From Flavobacteriales bacterium (lineage in GTDB: Bacteria > Bacteroidota > Bacteroidia > Flavobacteriales_E > Vicingaceae), in contig JAJCYO010000104.1 in the NCBI GenBank assembly GCA_029262875.1, forward strand, positions 1-43,501: a DNA stretch of 43,501 nucleotides. Reading direction: 5' to 3'. This document shows, in pieces, positions 19,349 through 26,375 of this stretch; the stretch's first letter is position 1, and each line of letters starts with the position of its first letter. The notes under the pieces are model-generated. The model was not told where the DNA came from. It worked only from the letters and a program-made list of their open reading frames with translations, and searched no databases. Made by a program: the position numbers and the translations under genes.

Positions 19349-20554
19349 TCAGAGATTCTCTAACTGAGAACCATCATTCATAAAAGCTGGAATACCAGTT
19401 ACATCCATTCCTGTAATTAATAAATGAATGTCATGTGTTCCTTCATAAGTGATCACAGATTCTAAATTTGCCATGTGACGCATAATTGGGTATTCACCAG
19501 TAATTCCCATTCCGCCATGCATTTGTCTTGCTTCACGAGCAATTTTTAATGCCATGTCCACATTATTACGTTTTGCCATTGAAATTTGTGCTGAGGTGGC
19601 TCTTCCTTCTTCTCTTAAAACACCTAAACGCCAAGTTAATAGTTGTGCTTTGGTGATTTCGGTAATCATTTCTGCTAACTTCTTTTGTGTTAATTGAAAT
19701 GAAGCCACAGGCACTCCAAATTGTATTCTTTCTTTGGTATACCTCAAAGCAGAATCATAGCAATCCATAGCTGCACCAATTGCTCCCCAAGCAATACCAT
19801 AACGAGCAGAATCTAAACAGCCAAGTGGAGCACCCAATCCAGATTTATTAGGCAATAAGTTTTCTTTAGGAACTTTTACATTATCAAAGACCAATTCACC
19901 TGTAATGGAAGCTCTCAACGACCATTTATCATGTGTTTCTGGAGTGGTAAATCCTTCCATTCCTCTTTCTACTAACAATCCATGAATTCTTCCTTCTTCA
20001 TTTTTTGCCCAAACTACAGCAACATCAGCTATAGGAGCATTGGTAATCCACATTTTCGCACCATTTAAAAGGTAATGATCACCCATGTCTTTAAAGTTGG
20101 TAATCATTCCACTTGGGTTAGAGCCATGGTCAGGTTCAGTTAATCCAAAACAACCCATAAATTCTCCCGTTGCCAATTTTGGTAAAAAACGTTGCTTTTG
20201 TTCTTCATTTCCGTATTTCCAAATAGGGTACATCACCAAAGAACTTTGCACCGAAGAGGTAGACCTTAAACCCGAGTCGCACCTTTCTAATTCCTGCATA
20301 ATTAAACCGTAAGAAATTTGATCTAATCCAGGGCCACCATATTCTTCTGGAATATATGGTCCAAAACCACCAACTTCAGCTAAACCTGGTATAATTTGAG
20401 AAGGAAATTCAGCTTTTTGAGCATATTCCTCTATAATTGGAGAAACCTCGGCTTTCACCCAAGCCCTTACTGTATCTCTTATTAATTTATGTTCTTCTGT
20501 TAAAAGCTCATCTAATTGATAATAGTCTGGAGCTTGAAATCTATCGTCTGCCAT
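19349..20554 (-). CDS. acyl-CoA dehydrogenase, glutaryl-CoA dehydrogenase type
   Basis: A 401-residue FAD-dependent acyl-CoA dehydrogenase. Several segments agree closely with glutaryl-CoA dehydrogenases as I recall them: SGLRSTSSVQSSLVM (its Arg contacts the glutaryl carboxylate in that family), CFGLTEPDHGSNP, ARYGIAWG, and TYEGTHDIHLLI with catalytic base Glu371. The reaction would be oxidative decarboxylation of glutaryl-CoA to crotonyl-CoA in lysine/tryptophan breakdown, or a related acyl-CoA oxidation. ETF genes are not nearby. The SGNH gene follows in the same direction. Confidence 0.88.
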   Translation of the reverse strand: MADDRFQAPDYYQLDELLTEEHKLIRDTVRAWVKAEVSPIIEEYAQKAEFPSQIIPGLAEVGGFGPYIPEEYGGPGLDQISYGLIMQELERCDSGLRSTSSVQSSLVMYPIWKYGNEEQKQRFLPKLATGEFMGCFGLTEPDHGSNPSGMITNFKDMGDHYLLNGAKMWITNAPIADVAVVWAKNEEGRIHGLLVERGMEGFTTPETHDKWSLRASITGELVFDNVKVPKENLLPNKSGLGAPLGCLDSARYGIAWGAIGAAMDCYDSALRYTKERIQFGVPVASFQLTQKKLAEMITEITKAQLLTWRLGVLREEGRATSAQISMAKRNNVDMALKIAREARQMHGGMGITGEYPIMRHMANLESVITYEGTHDIHLLITGMDVTGIPAFMNDGSQLENL

Positions 20555-20648: not shown

Positions 20649-20672
20649 TAAGTTTGATATGATTTAAATCAT
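20649..20672 (+). promoter_or_regulatory. promoter plus FNR-box-like palindrome of the redox cluster
   Basis: TAAGTTTG (20649-20656) fits the -7 TAnnTTTG element, with the ATG 24 bases beyond the palindrome-bearing segment start. Immediately after it, ATGATTTAAATCAT (20659-20672) is a perfect 14-bp palindrome containing TGAT-N4-ATCA, the core of CRP/FNR-superfamily sites. It would cover the transcription start, a position expected for repression. The regulator is not in the window. Confidence 0.5.
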
Positions 20673-20686
20673 AAAAATTCAAGTAC

Positions 20687-21259
20687 ATGAAAAATTCTTT
20701 ACTAATAATTACTTTATTAATTTCAAGCATTTCATTTGCACAAACTAAAGTTTCTGTTGTTGCTGGTGCTGGGATATTTACTTCTGCAAATGTTGTTGTC
20801 AATGTTGGAGATACTGTAGAATGGACGAGTGCAGGATTCCATAATGTAAATGGAACTCAAGCCACGTTCAGTTCTAATCCAGCATCTTTTGGTAATTCTC
20901 CAGCATCTGGGTGGACGTATTTTTTCGTTTTTACCGTTGCTGGTGTTTATAATTATCAATGTGATGTTCATGCACCTAATATGGCTGGGACGGTAACTGT
21001 TCAGACTCCAGTAGGGATTAATGAAAATGCGAACGTTGGTAAAGTTGGTTTTTATCCAAACCCAGCTTCAAAAGAATTGAATTTTTCTAACATTAAATCC
21101 ATCAAACATGTTGGAGTTTACGCTTTAACTGGTGAAAAAATATTAGAATCTAATTTGATAAAAGAGCAATTAGATATCTCTACACTAAGTTCTGGTATAT
21201 ATTTTGTAAAAATAACTACCAATACAGAAACGACTACTGAGAAGTTGATTATTCAATAA
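20687..21259 (+). CDS. secreted plastocyanin-like cupredoxin with T9SS type A sorting domain
   Basis: A 190-residue secreted protein. The signal peptide ends at SFAQ. Residues 20-107 form a cupredoxin domain with the type 1 copper ligands His52 (FHNVNG), Cys92, His95 and Met99 (QCDVHAPNM). A T9SS type A sorting domain follows from about residue 118 (VGFYPNPASKELNF to the end). The protein should be a mobile one-electron carrier or copper site on the cell surface, unlike ordinary periplasmic plastocyanins. It is the first of five same-strand genes; a cytochrome c lipoprotein follows after 14 bp. Confidence 0.88.
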   Translation: MKNSLLIITLLISSISFAQTKVSVVAGAGIFTSANVVVNVGDTVEWTSAGFHNVNGTQATFSSNPASFGNSPASGWTYFFVFTVAGVYNYQCDVHAPNMAGTVTVQTPVGINENANVGKVGFYPNPASKELNFSNIKSIKHVGVYALTGEKILESNLIKEQLDISTLSSGIYFVKITTNTETTTEKLIIQ

Positions 21260-21273
21260 AATACAAAAGTACA

Positions 21274-21642
21274 ATGAGAAATATATTAATCTTAACTACA
21301 GTTCTAATGTTAAGTGCTTGTGCAAGCAACAAAGAGGAACTACCAGAGCCGACCACACCTGTTGCCCCTGTAATCACGGGGCCTGCTATAACATACACAA
21401 ACCATACGAAGAGGTTGTTTGATAGTTATTGTACTTCATGTCATGCTGCAGGGCAGACCCAATCTTTTTGGCCTTTATCAACCTATAGCCAGGTAAGTGT
21501 TTATAGCAATACTGGCGGAAAAATACAAACTAGGGTGTTAGATGCAGGAAATATGCCACCATCAGGATCGGCTGCTGGGTTTTTAACTGCGGCAGAAAAA
21601 GATACTTTGCAAATGTGGTTAAATCAAGGAGCGCCTCAATAA
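21274..21642 (+). CDS. monohaem c-type cytochrome lipoprotein
   Basis: A 122-residue lipoprotein with lipobox MLSAC (Cys16), a Pro/Thr-rich linker, and one haem c site Cys53-Thr-Ser-Cys56-His57. A probable distal ligand is Met94 in AGNMPPSG, and the ending EKDTLQMWLNQGAP is typical of the small cytochromes linked to membrane or surface oxidases in Bacteroidota. It is a likely electron-transfer partner for the cupredoxin encoded 14 bp upstream (inference). Confidence 0.87.
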   Translation: MRNILILTTVLMLSACASNKEELPEPTTPVAPVITGPAITYTNHTKRLFDSYCTSCHAAGQTQSFWPLSTYSQVSVYSNTGGKIQTRVLDAGNMPPSGSAAGFLTAAEKDTLQMWLNQGAPQ

Positions 21643-21669
21643 ATTTCTTTAAATTAATAAATACATAAA

Positions 21670-22218
21670 ATGATGAAAAAAGTTACTTTTTTAATTTTAC
21701 TGATATCCATTGTTTCAATTGGATATTCTCAAAACTTGTATAAAGCAACATCTGGAGAAATTTCTTTTTTCTCAGAAACACCAATGGAAAACATTGACGC
21801 GGTTAACAAAAACCTTAAAGCTTTAATCAATACCAAGAATGGTGATGTTGCTTTTATTGTAACAAACATTGGTTTTAAGTTTGAGAAGCCCTTAATGGAA
21901 GAGCATTTTAATGAAAATTACATGGAGAGCGATAAATACAAAAGCTCTATGTTTAAGGGTAAAATTGTCGGAAATGTTGATTTTACAAAAGATGGAACGT
22001 ACCCAGTAAAGGCAAAAGGAACATTAAACATTCATGGTGTAGATAAAAAACGTGAAATAGACGGTGAACTTACGATCCAAGAGGGTAAAATTAGCATGAC
22101 AAGTGAGTTTGAAGTGAACTTAAAAGATCATAAGATTAAAATACCAAAGCTTGTTGTGAAAAATATTTCAGAAACGGTAAAAGTTACTGTAAACTTGAAT
22201 TTTGAACTTAAAAAATAA
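21670..22218 (+). CDS. YceI family periplasmic lipid-binding protein
   Basis: A 182-residue secreted protein with a signal peptide ending near GYSQ and a lipocalin-like YceI domain. Recognisable parts are ATSGEISFFSETPMENIDA at the start, then KSSMFKGKIVGNVDF, GTLNIHGVDKKREIDGEL and a final strand VKVTVNLNFELKK. YceI proteins bind polyisoprenoid or other long apolar chains. It is 27 bp after the cytochrome gene and 7 bp before the DUF5777 gene. Association of YceI with small cytochromes is known elsewhere (for example in some bacteria with cytochrome b561), but the ligand here is unknown. Confidence 0.88.
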   Translation: MMKKVTFLILLISIVSIGYSQNLYKATSGEISFFSETPMENIDAVNKNLKALINTKNGDVAFIVTNIGFKFEKPLMEEHFNENYMESDKYKSSMFKGKIVGNVDFTKDGTYPVKAKGTLNIHGVDKKREIDGELTIQEGKISMTSEFEVNLKDHKIKIPKLVVKNISETVKVTVNLNFELKK

Positions 22219-22225
22219 TAGCATA

Positions 22226-23131
22226 ATGAATAAATTATTACTACTAATACTATTGTGTTTCTTTAGTGTTTCAATAAATGCTCAAGATGATTTGATGGAC
22301 ATGTTGGAAGATGAGGTTGAAGCGGAAAGTACACCAGAAAAAGTGATGGCAACCTTCAAGGGCATAAGACTAATTAATGCCCAAACCATTCAAACAACCA
22401 AAAAGAGAACATTAGAGTTTAGCATTACGCATCGATTTGGAGATATGGACATAGATGGGCCAACTGGTAAACACACGCTTTACGGGTTGGAAAATGCATC
22501 GAACATTCGGTTTTCTTTTGATTATGGCTTAACGGATAAGCTTAGTATAGGGTGGGGTAGAAGTAAAATGAATGAACATGTAGATGTACATGGAAAATTT
22601 CGTTTTTTAGAACAAAAGAAAGGGGGAATGCCAATTTCAGCTGCTTATTATGTTAATGCGGCCATTTCTCCTGTGTCTCGCCCTGATACTTTTGAATTGG
22701 TGAATAGGTTGTCTTATGTACATCAATTAATCATTGCAAGTAAATTAAATAGTGCCATTTCATTAGAAATTTTACCAACATTTGTACATCGTAATTTTGT
22801 TGATCAGACTATTCTTCACCCAACAAATGGCTCGGTAGATGAGAACGATCTATTTGCTGTTGGTTTTGCGGGGCGATTTAAGATAACCAAACGAATGGCA
22901 TTTGTTATGGATTATTTCCTGACCTTTTCTGAATTTAGGGATGGAGATAATGGTTTTTATGCTCCATTGGCTGTGGGAGTTGAAATTGAAACTGGAGGTC
23001 ATGTCTTTCATATCAATGTTACTAATTCTGCAGGTATTATTGAGAATGATTTTATACCATCAACAACCAGTAACTGGGGTGATGGTCAATACAAATTAGG
23101 GTTTAATATTTCCAGGGTTTTTAGCTTTTAA
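22226..23131 (+). CDS. DUF5777 family outer-membrane beta-barrel protein
   Basis: A 301-residue protein from the ATG at 22226; an upstream in-frame TTG would overlap the yceI end and spoil the signal peptide MNKLLLLILLCFFSVSINAQ, so I reject it. After a short acidic segment, the DUF5777 start VMATFKGIRLINAQTIQT is followed by alternating amphipathic strands such as TLEFSITHRFGDMD, NIRFSFDYGLTDKLSIGWG and a terminal YKLGFNISRVFSF with an aromatic end, as in outer-membrane barrels. Function unknown. It is 7 bp after yceI and 12 bp before the desaturase gene. Confidence 0.85.
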   Translation: MNKLLLLILLCFFSVSINAQDDLMDMLEDEVEAESTPEKVMATFKGIRLINAQTIQTTKKRTLEFSITHRFGDMDIDGPTGKHTLYGLENASNIRFSFDYGLTDKLSIGWGRSKMNEHVDVHGKFRFLEQKKGGMPISAAYYVNAAISPVSRPDTFELVNRLSYVHQLIIASKLNSAISLEILPTFVHRNFVDQTILHPTNGSVDENDLFAVGFAGRFKITKRMAFVMDYFLTFSEFRDGDNGFYAPLAVGVEIETGGHVFHINVTNSAGIIENDFIPSTTSNWGDGQYKLGFNISRVFSF

Positions 23132-23143
23132 TACTTCCTATAA

Positions 23144-24019
23144 ATGGAGTTTCTCGGAATCATAAAGAATGCATACAATGGCTATGCTAATTACTTATGG
23201 TCGGAAGTTACATTCCAATCAGATCCTTGGTATTTGAATTATTTTTGGTGGCTAATTCTGCTTTCCCTTGCAGTATGGTTCTTAGAGTTGATTTTTCCAT
23301 GGCGAAAAAATCAACCAAAAATCCGGGCAGATTTTTGGATAGATACATTTTACATGTTCTTTAATTTCTTCATTTTTAACCTGGTCATCTTTATTGCATT
23401 TTGTGACCTCACCGCACATTTTTTTTCAACTCTTTTTGGAGGAAGTTTACAAGATTTTTCTTTGATAGATATTCAAGATTATCCAGAGTGGTTGCAATTA
23501 CTTATCTTTTTTATAGCAACAGATTTTGTACAATGGTTTACCCATGTTCTATTGCATCGATTTCCTTTTTTATGGCGTTTTCATAAAGTACATCATTCTG
23601 TTGAGGAAATGGGTTTTGCAGCTCATTTGAGGTACCATTGGATGGAAAACGTTTTTTATACGCCAATGAAATACATTATGATAATGTTAATTGGAGGGTT
23701 TCATCCAGAACAAGCATTTATGGTGTATTATTTTGCAATTGCTTTGGGTCACCTCAATCATGCTAACATAGGGTTAGATTATGGACCCTTAAAATATGTT
23801 TTAAATAATCCTAAAATGCACATTTGGCATCATGCATATGAATTACCCAAGCAATATTCCAATGGAGCTAATTTTGGGATATCTTTAAGTCTTTGGGATT
23901 ATATTTTTAGAACCAATTACATTCCTCATTCCGGAAGAGATATTAAATTGGGGTTTGAAAAAGTTGAGAAATTTCCAAAAACATTTTTCAAACAGTTGTA
24001 TTCTGGGTTCAAAGGTTAA
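23144..24019 (+). CDS. sterol desaturase / fatty acid hydroxylase superfamily membrane enzyme
   Basis: A 291-residue integral membrane protein with four or more spans and the histidine clusters of the di-iron fatty acid hydroxylase superfamily: HVLLHRFPF, FHKVHHSVEEM, HLRYHW and HIWHHAYE. These enzymes hydroxylate or desaturate sterols, sphingolipids, carotenoids or alkyl ethers using O2 and an electron donor. The substrate cannot be told. As last gene of the redox cluster it might receive electrons from it or act on the apolar ligand bound by YceI; both are inference. Confidence 0.87.
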   Translation: MEFLGIIKNAYNGYANYLWSEVTFQSDPWYLNYFWWLILLSLAVWFLELIFPWRKNQPKIRADFWIDTFYMFFNFFIFNLVIFIAFCDLTAHFFSTLFGGSLQDFSLIDIQDYPEWLQLLIFFIATDFVQWFTHVLLHRFPFLWRFHKVHHSVEEMGFAAHLRYHWMENVFYTPMKYIMIMLIGGFHPEQAFMVYYFAIALGHLNHANIGLDYGPLKYVLNNPKMHIWHHAYELPKQYSNGANFGISLSLWDYIFRTNYIPHSGRDIKLGFEKVEKFPKTFFKQLYSGFKG

Positions 24020-24072: not shown

Positions 24073-25731
24073 TTATTTATTTGTTCCTGCTAAAATTGAA
24101 TTGTATAAAGCTCGATCGTTTAATGTTTTAATTGCTTCATCTAAAACAAGGTCATGCTTTAAGGAAACCTCTATTTGACCTTTTTGGTAATAATATCGAG
24201 ATACTATTTCACTTTCAAGGATGTACTTTATTTCATCTTTAAATTTATATAAATCATCTTTTTTATTGTGGCTTAACTTATTTTTTAATGCTTCATATTC
24301 CGCTTTAACATCGTCAAAATACTTATCGTCTTTAGCAGCCTTTTCAAGCTTTACGAGAATATCTTCACTTTCCGTTGTATATTCATAGTCTTTTCCATCT
24401 AAAAAGTGTACGAAGTTCTCGTATTCATCATCAGATAATGAAAACTCTTTTGTTTCTTTAATCGTTTCATGTTTTATTCTGTACTCGGTAGCATAACTAA
24501 AGAATAAATTTTTTAATAGTAAGCTTGCAGCAATATCACTAAGTAAGTGACTTTTTACTGCAACATCTGGAGCAACACCCTTTCCATCAAAAACACTTCG
24601 TTTGTTTTTCAGCGTTTTGAATTCAGTAATTAAAGAATCTGGTATTTCACCAACCTTTCCATCCTGACCTCTATGAGAATAATCTAATTTTTGAATACAT
24701 CTGCCACTTGGTGTATAGTACTTGGCAACAGTCACTTTTAATTTAGAATTATAGCTTAATGGTCTTACTTGCTGTACCAATCCTTTTCCAAAAGATAAAG
24801 AGCCTAATATTACGGCCCTATCATTATCCTGTAATGAACCCGATACAATTTCTGAAGCTGATGCCGAACCTCCATTAACCAAGACAGCTAAAGGGATTTC
24901 TGTGTCAACTGGGATTGACAACGCTTTATATTCCTTATCCCAATCTTTAATTTTTCCTTTTGTGCTTACAACAGGACTTCCTTTTTCAACAAAAAAGTTG
25001 ACAATATTTACAGATTCTCTCAATAGTCCTCCACCATTTCCTCTTAAATCCAATACAATAGCATTGGCGCCTTTTTCTTTTAAACTAATAAGTGCAGCTT
25101 TTACTTCAGCGCTTGCAGATTCCGTAAATCCAGTTAACCTAATGTAGCCTATACTGTCTCCCACCATTCCAAAATAAGGAACATCTTTAATTTTAACTTC
25201 TTCTCGGGTCACAGTTTTAGTGAGTAGTCCCTCTATTCCGGGTCTTTCAATGACTATTTCGACAGTTGTTCCTGGTTGACCTAAAAGAAATTCTCGAATC
25301 TCGTCAGAGGACTTTCCAACCGCTTCATTACCATCTATTTTAATAATTTTATCTCCAGCTCTTAGTCCAGCTTTGTCTGCTCCAAAACCTTGATAAGGTT
25401 CTGAAATGACTACTTTATCTCCCTGTGTTTGAATTAACGCACCTATACCTCCATACTGACCGGTAGTCATCATTTTGTAGTCTTCCATTTTGGATTCTGG
25501 AATGTAGTTGGTGTAAGGATCCAAAGATTCCAACATCGCATCGATACCTGTTTTCATTAAGTCTCCAGGATCTGCATCATCAACATAATAAATATTCAAT
25601 TCCCTAAAAAGAGTAGCAAAAATGTCGAGGTTTTTAGATACTTCAAAATAACTTTCCACAAACCCAAATGAGAAAATTGACGTGGTTGCAAGAGAAATAA
25701 TTACAACTATTTTAGTGATTCCTTTTTTCAT
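24073..25731 (-). CDS. S41 family C-terminal processing peptidase
   Basis: A 552-residue CtpA/Prc-type serine protease. A signal/anchor segment (about residues 5-24) is followed by a helical region, a PDZ domain (QYGGIGALIQ through the GLRAGDKIIKIDG carboxylate-binding groove) and the S41 core. The core has LDLRGNGGG, the nucleophile region GGSASASEIVSG and the catalytic Lys in FGKGLVQQ. A ~200-residue Lys/Glu-rich C-terminal extension is present, as in Bacteroidota members. It trims C-termini of periplasmic substrates. It lies 45 bp after yidD in the rnpA-yidD-ctpA series. Confidence 0.93.
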   Translation of the reverse strand: MKKGITKIVVIISLATTSIFSFGFVESYFEVSKNLDIFATLFRELNIYYVDDADPGDLMKTGIDAMLESLDPYTNYIPESKMEDYKMMTTGQYGGIGALIQTQGDKVVISEPYQGFGADKAGLRAGDKIIKIDGNEAVGKSSDEIREFLLGQPGTTVEIVIERPGIEGLLTKTVTREEVKIKDVPYFGMVGDSIGYIRLTGFTESASAEVKAALISLKEKGANAIVLDLRGNGGGLLRESVNIVNFFVEKGSPVVSTKGKIKDWDKEYKALSIPVDTEIPLAVLVNGGSASASEIVSGSLQDNDRAVILGSLSFGKGLVQQVRPLSYNSKLKVTVAKYYTPSGRCIQKLDYSHRGQDGKVGEIPDSLITEFKTLKNKRSVFDGKGVAPDVAVKSHLLSDIAASLLLKNLFFSYATEYRIKHETIKETKEFSLSDDEYENFVHFLDGKDYEYTTESEDILVKLEKAAKDDKYFDDVKAEYEALKNKLSHNKKDDLYKFKDEIKYILESEIVSRYYYQKGQIEVSLKHDLVLDEAIKTLNDRALYNSILAGTNK

Positions 25732-25776
25732 AATTTTTTATTCTATATCAAACTGTTATTATCAATAATTGTTCCA

Positions 25777-25998
25777 TTATGGAACTGGATCATGACCATG
25801 TCCTCCCCACGGGTGACAGGAAAATATGCGTTTAAGAGAAAGCCATCCGCCTTTAAATGGGCCATGTTTGTTGATAGCTTCAATACTGTATTGAGAACAA
25901 GTTGGAGTATATCTACAATTCTGGCCTAATATTGGAGAAATACTTAGTTGGTAAATACGAATAATCACAACAAATATTTTACTCACTAACCACTTCAC
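25777..25998 (-). CDS. yidD: membrane protein insertion efficiency factor YidD
   Basis: A 73-residue protein with the full family pattern: an amphipathic N-terminal helix, then [19 protein letters not shown] and [16 protein letters not shown] ending in HDPVP. YidD aids YidC/Sec membrane insertion. The start is GTG (25998-25996), overlapping the rnpA stop by 4 bases, so the pair is translationally coupled. rpmH and yidC, common neighbours elsewhere, are not here. Confidence 0.95.
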
Positions 25999-26375
25999 TC
26001 TTCAATTAAACGTGTTAAAAGTACTTTTATTTTACCTTCAATTTCTTTATACGGTAAAATTTGTTTTGAGGTATAAATAAACATCAAATTTAATTCAGAA
26101 GTATTGTTTTTAAGATGTGTTTTTAGCTCATTACTGTTTAATCGATAAGCTTCTCTTATTCTTCTTTTAATCAGATTTCTGTTTACTGCTAATTTGATGT
26201 TTTTTTTTGAAACAGTAACACCCATATTTATAGGGATATTGTCATGTTCTGATTTTGGAATATAAATGACCCTAACTGGAAAAGCATTAATAGATTTTCC
26301 TTTACTAAAAAGAATGTCAATTGCTTTTTTGCTTTTTAGTTTCTCTTTTTTAGAATATTTATGGTTTGATTCCAT
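25995..26375 (-). CDS. rnpA: ribonuclease P protein component
   Basis: A 126-residue RNase P protein, which binds the catalytic RNA and pre-tRNA leaders. The RNR motif [15 protein letters not shown] is intact and the N-terminus has the usual [19 protein letters not shown]. It overlaps yidD by 4 bases. The TACATTTG element 12 bases upstream of its start on the same strand is a promoter candidate with a very short leader. rpmH is absent upstream; a divergent phosphatase gene takes that place. Confidence 0.95.

Follow-up and report, generated by a model that had tools for sequence, protein, structure and literature searches.

The 43,501-nucleotide stretch analysed here (hereafter the window; contig JAJCYO010000104.1 of the Flavobacteriales assembly GCA_029262875.1) carries on its plus strand five tandem genes, encoding in this order a cupredoxin exported by the type IX secretion system (T9SS), a monohaem cytochrome c lipoprotein, a YceI family protein, a DUF5777 outer-membrane beta barrel and a membrane di-iron enzyme of the FA_hydroxylase family (FAH) (Table 1). 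The first-pass annotation had described five closely packed genes on one strand, and all of these open reading frames were borne out when read from the window, the spacings being 14, 27, 7 and 12 bp. The interval noted there starts at 20649, separated by 38 bp from the first start codon, that of the cupredoxin gene; the DUF5777 gene starts with ATG at 22226, and an alternative in-frame TTG at 22202 would overlap the YceI gene. Four of the five products exceeded the Pfam cut-offs: the cupredoxin (Copper-bind, 5.5e-07) together with its sorting tail (Por_Secre_tail PF18962, 3.9e-15, 56.3 bits against a cut-off of 27; TIGR04183, 50.2 bits against 23), YceI (PF04264, 6.8e-11, 43.2 bits against 23.7), DUF5777 (PF19089, 2.7e-88, 295.8 bits against 23.1, full length over profile positions 1-247) and FAH (PF04116, 4.6e-26, 92.2 bits, with complete HX3H, HX2HH and HX2HH motifs). 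The cytochrome stayed below every Pfam cut-off (Cytochrome_CBB3, 17.5 bits against the 27 required) and was assigned from its lipobox, its single CTSCH (CX2CH) motif, a Met-Pro segment and a family profile.

Table 1. Genes and candidate operator of the five-gene locus, in window coordinates
Feature	Position	Strand	Evidence
Perfect palindrome TATGATTTAAATCATA, candidate FNR/Crp-type operator	20658..20673	.	Directly upstream of the cupredoxin gene
T9SS-exported cupredoxin (plastocyanin/azurin family, type 1 Cu ligand pattern), type A sorting tail	20687..21259	+	Pfam and TIGR04183
Monohaem cytochrome c lipoprotein	21274..21642	+	CTSCH, Met-Pro ligand segment, lipobox then CASNKEELPEP
YceI family lipocalin-like periplasmic carrier	21670..22218	+	PF04264
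DUF5777 outer-membrane beta barrel, 12 strands predicted	22226..23131	+	PF19089, AlphaFold
FA_hydroxylase-family (FAH) integral membrane di-iron enzyme, lineage-specific accessory	23144..24019	+	PF04116, His motifs

A total of 184 DUF5777 neighbourhoods were read across Bacteroidota, 144 of them being used for the enrichment statistics, and the FAH count was made on 145. The genome samples comprised 60 relatives, 198 genomes at least 90% complete from across the phylum, and 195 genomes of a more distant class. DUF5777, single-copy in the genome of the window, was found in 54 of the relatives, in 82 of the phylum-wide genomes (52 of 103 genera) and in 112 of the 195 genomes of the distant class; it was not found in the viral contigs searched. 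The most constant near co-directional neighbours were a haem-c protein (149/184 loci) and, in second place, YceI (140/184). Of the 576 genes that lie up to three places from DUF5777 and point the same way, 157 matched the cytochrome profile, as against 13 of the 1523 other genes in those neighbourhoods (odds ratio 44, P 7e-79), and YceI matches numbered 113 near DUF5777 as against 5 elsewhere (odds ratio 74, P 3e-60), these P values being indicative only because related loci are not independent events. Since the loci were gathered through DUF5777, the sample is unbiased towards cytochrome or YceI neighbours. The commonest gene order is cytochrome-YceI-DUF5777, the same as in the window, and the conserved unit is made up of these three of the five genes, linked phylum-wide. 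The idea that the five genes stay together in relatives holds for these three, but not for the other two: the T9SS cupredoxin recurs in the genus of the window and a few other members of the family, and FAH stands beside DUF5777 in the genus only.

The cytochrome position is not always occupied by a cytochrome. At nine loci (L134, L138, L153, L156, L160, L162, L200, L235 and L236) the nearby carrier is a Rieske protein, three of these assignments being confirmed by Pfam and the others made via a profile built from those three, and no motif-bearing haem cytochrome was found at the nine loci. In L032, L044 and L055 a cupredoxin lipoprotein occupies the slot before YceI. Haem and copper carriers have in common a C-x-[YF]-[DNES] sequence after the lipobox cysteine, present in 53 of 112 carriers and in 10 of 297 other predicted lipoproteins; the corresponding peptide of the window cytochrome is not an exact match. 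The slot is exchanged among three one-electron centres, which is hard to explain unless it carries electrons. With fusions counted, some redox-carrier candidate was identified at 168 of the 184 loci. As a separate observation, CX4CH, and in some cases CX3CH, replaces CX2CH unusually often in the cytochromes adjacent to DUF5777 (for example L042:10582-10971 and L088:2046-2468).

In six genomes of three families (L195, L217, L218, L219, L220 and L221), a haem-c domain (CX4CH) and DUF5777 form one polypeptide. The cytochrome profile matches the N-terminal stretch of these fusions (about residues 43-140 in L217) with E values of 2e-5 to 2e-8, and the remainder matches the DUF5777 profile with E values of about 1e-40 or better. 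An assembly error is unlikely because one fusion comes from a single-contig genome. The lipobox present in the split cytochromes is missing from the fusions, and a separate second haem lipoprotein persists beside those of L195, L220 and L221. The AlphaFold model of the L218 fusion contains a helical domain followed by 12 strands (pLDDT 86.8, pTM 0.79), and a structure search of the PDB with this model gave only barrels among the matches listed. Genes for an MbnP-family protein, a MauG-type di-haem peroxidase and a molybdoenzyme were noticed directly upstream of two of the fusions (L217:1204-4124 and L218).

The window DUF5777 itself was modelled from a 60-sequence alignment as a barrel of 12 strands (pLDDT 92.1), the last strand of which shows a beta-signal-like pattern with Phe at its end. 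Its structural matches included KdgM, NanC, COG4313, FapF, LpxR and OMPLA; because small porins and barrels of a general kind are matched, no function follows from the fold by itself. When the PDB was searched by sequence with the profile of DUF5777, no relative came up, the only hit being a designed barrel at E 0.86. H69, Q130, N190, T256 and H259 are among the invariant residues. We considered His69 and His259 as possible axial ligands to a haem within the barrel and dropped this idea, since hydropathy parity, used in place of coordinates, puts both on the lipid-facing side, in strands 1 and 11. A divergent DUF5777 paralogue recurs together with NrfD-like, 4Fe-4S and cytochrome c genes in L060, L088, L211 and L213, a set that resembles a quinone-linked complex and is joined in L060, L088 and L211 by a protein of 290-315 aa. 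More generally, NrfD/Fe-S, ethylbenzene-dehydrogenase-type, molybdopterin or di-haem peroxidase genes are further members of some operons.

The operons also recurrently encode redox proteins destined for the cell surface. Among the 36 T9SS-tailed proteins found in the 144 operons, 20 carry a CX2-4CH sequence, which is a motif and not proof of bound haem, and 9 carry a cupredoxin domain (29/36 together); in L036, L038 and L041 both kinds accompany the cytochrome lipoprotein. A group of T9SS proteins, each some 280 aa long and bearing CX2-4CH near the N-terminus (L034:7079-7954, and likewise in L036, L038, L041, L087, L088, L103 and L104), are possibly surface cytochromes; in the three that were scanned, the sorting tail was the sole Pfam domain above cut-off.

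Taken together, we interpret the five genes as the version, found in one lineage, of an uncharacterised Bacteroidota outer-membrane redox module, in which a carrier docked on the barrel would move electrons at the cell surface, and we give this interpretation an even chance of being correct. Its core would combine YceI and the 12-strand barrel with a lipoprotein that carries one electron, in most cases a monohaem cytochrome c and in others a Rieske protein or a cupredoxin. Most likely, carrier and barrel dock in a physical complex, giving a minimal, usually split, porin-electron-carrier unit, and this unit would move electrons across the membrane. At one end would be a pool in the periplasm, which may consist of quinone or lipid held by YceI, and at the other the T9SS-exported haem or copper proteins as the partner at the surface. 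Electrons might conceivably be relayed over a short distance, from haem at the mouth of the barrel to a haem or copper protein on the surface. This agrees with one of the two earlier suggestions, that copper and haem proteins pass electrons through or near the barrel: the haem-barrel fusions, the carrier swaps and the recurrent T9SS redox cargo lend it support, the conduction step itself being one that we infer.

Several observations weigh against electron transfer by such a module. The weakest step is that one or two haems do not obviously span the outer membrane by known tunnelling distances. The haem domain of the fusions should be periplasmic, yet the acidic peptide of many free cytochromes resembles a surface-export signal: the peptide after the lipobox cysteine is similar to the Bacteroidota lipoprotein export signal (PMC5080379). 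In the window cytochrome K-E-E starts at +5 and not at the optimum of +3, which leaves its surface exposure either way. A recognised carrier is missing nearby at 16 of the 184 loci. Finally, COX1 was present in all 82 DUF5777-bearing survey genomes but also in 107 of the 116 genomes without DUF5777, and being nearly universal in the sample it makes only a weak link between DUF5777 and respiration.

Among the closest known systems is Cyc2, a fused cytochrome-porin iron oxidase whose porin has 16 strands and is proposed to be plugged at its periplasmic end by the monohaem cytochrome (PMC8406198). The likeness lies in a monohaem cytochrome c joined to an outer-membrane barrel with the haem domain at the N-terminus, as in the six fused relatives, whereas cytochrome and barrel are separate genes in the window and the models of both the window barrel and the L218 fusion have 12 strands. 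The Cyc2 consensus, AXPXFAR[Q/K][T/Y] before and PXL after the haem motif (PMC8406198), is not followed either by the window cytochrome, which reads TKRLFDSYCTSCHAAGQTQ, or by the L218 fusion, which reads VAALFERSCTQAGCHGAPV. Further differences from Cyc2 are the haem motif, often CX4CH in relatives, the YceI and T9SS partners, and the absence of a known link with iron. By strand number, cytochrome consensus and, for the window, the lack of fusion, the DUF5777 module is not a Cyc2; it is best read, by analogy, as a functional likeness of one. The window set also resembles the Acidithiobacillus rus operon, in which an outer-membrane cytochrome is encoded with a cupredoxin and a cytochrome c, but the window cupredoxin is exported by T9SS and the window operon lacks oxidase genes. 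As in the Mtr/Pcc porin-cytochrome systems (PMC4245776), a barrel is encoded together with periplasmic and surface redox proteins, but those systems place a multihaem periplasmic cytochrome in a large barrel, and the window has one haem motif and a far smaller barrel of 12 strands.

YceI, the second most constant neighbour, brings in the main rival explanation. BcnA, a YceI family protein, and the linked cytochrome b561 LcoA protect against lipid peroxidation, and their genes are sometimes fused (PMC9113575). A quinone or isoprenoid held by YceI might likewise quench lipid peroxyl radicals in the envelope, with the carrier re-reducing or re-oxidising it and the barrel giving access to outer-membrane lipids. 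This is the main rival because YceI may exchange electrons via bound quinone, as proposed for BcnA with LcoA. An ECF sigma factor gene adjoins some of the other operons, as expected of an envelope stress response, and the lipid-acting barrels LpxR and OMPLA are among the closest folds. The likeness to BcnA/LcoA is in the genetic linkage of a YceI-family lipocalin to a redox partner, but here the partner is a haem-c, Rieske or copper carrier plus a barrel, not a cytochrome b561, and no b561 gene was detected in a scan covering the five window genes and the two genes upstream. It is haem that is fused to the barrel, no YceI fusion being seen among the loci read, and the surface redox cargo is left unexplained. 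We consider this antioxidant role unlikely, and YceI may have a lipid or quinone role within the electron-carrier module as well.

The other earlier suggestion, oxidation of a polyisoprenoid or sterol-like lipid, centres on FAH, to which the remaining proteins would supply electrons for di-iron hydroxylation of a sterol-like or other lipid. In the window FAH does follow DUF5777 directly, with its di-iron motifs intact, and has distant similarity to the ornithine-lipid hydroxylase OlsE, scoring far below the NCBIfam equivalog cut-off (82.4 bits against 475). Across the 145 loci, however, FAH was found in the DUF5777 operon at only seven, all in the genus of the window, and in three of these it is fused behind rhodanese domains, and genes for a sulfite-oxidase-type molybdoenzyme and for a small cytochrome intervene between it and DUF5777; a close homologue in another family is not near DUF5777. 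Because most DUF5777 loci are without FAH, lipid oxidation is not supported as the purpose of the system and is very improbable as such; FAH is a local, incidental accessory of this genus. The rhodanese-FA_hydroxylase fusions, of about 605 aa (L035:5439-7268, L038:7609-9423 and L041:4922-6748), point to a possible sulfur-lipid link.

With respect to regulation, a palindrome lies about 14 bp before the first start codon, a position that would suit repression as well as activation. Including this one, five exact TATGATNNNNATCATA sites exist in the genome, and 59 sites were found with at most one mismatch as against 31 for a reversed control pattern. Other exact sites lie ahead of a cytochrome c/narG operon and of a set in which a Ric/YtfE-like gene is accompanied by genes for cytochrome c and an Rrf2 regulator; one-mismatch sites adjoin crp and narK-type genes (all named from sequence). 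Similar palindromes precede the operon in L031, L036 and L055, not in most relatives. A scan for sigma-70-type promoters gave no excess over shuffled sequences. An FNR-like site common to the window operon and nitrate-respiration genes counts in favour of a redox module, and it points to low oxygen or nitrate rather than to peroxidation, contrary to an antioxidant role. It would also fit an accessory of anaerobic or nitrosative respiration, in which the module passes the electrons of a periplasmic oxidoreductase (nitrate, NO, sulfite or type II DMSO-reductase family) and the barrel is the matching outer-membrane channel. Consistent with this, the L087 operon holds the end of a DMSO-reductase-family subunit, a 4Fe-4S subunit, a TorD-like gene and an EB_dh-type gene, and in L035, L038 and L041 the molybdoenzyme and cytochrome mentioned above follow DUF5777. 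The enzyme neighbour, however, varies between lineages and is usually absent, and the operator is found in few relatives' operons at a position ambiguous as to activation, so that we rate this explanation as improbable, below the antioxidant role. Separately, contig C81:1-14000 of genome G000 (L190) carries two Crp/Fnr-like genes, ModE- and MobA-like genes, two NarK-type transporters and three FNR-like sites.

The flanking genes are on the opposite strand, an acyl-CoA dehydrogenase at 19349-20554 and a protease named CtpA-like from its sequence at 24073-25731, the latter belonging to a ctpA-yidD-rnpA block (24073-26375) that adjoins the operon. The genes downstream of DUF5777 in many relatives, all on its strand, encode a membrane protein and then comprise a hemD-like gene, rnpA, yidD and ctpA. 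Because these neighbours recur, the location of the operon looks ancestral despite the changed orientation and content.

No mention of DUF5777 was found in the literature searched, most subscription journals lying outside the search, so that an earlier description is possible; for the cytochrome/YceI/DUF5777 set no earlier description was found, mostly on the basis of titles and abstracts. Going beyond the window, we put forward as a tentative and rather doubtful extension that DUF5777 represents an independent second family of minimal electron conduits in the outer membrane, in which a 12-strand barrel is paired with an interchangeable carrier holding one redox centre (haem c, Rieske or type 1 copper) and with T9SS haem or copper acceptors, in about half of the sampled Bacteroidota genera. 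If this were true, the conduit family would include many genera not regarded as electroactive. Should the barrel and its exchangeable carrier move electrons at the outer membrane, surface redox chemistry in Bacteroidota would be far commoner than assumed, and T9SS would have a part in exporting redox proteins. Thanks to the fusions and carrier swaps, the module hypothesis lends itself to direct tests in laboratory strains, and a set of genes found throughout the phylum, with a so far unstudied barrel, would gain a concrete, testable function.

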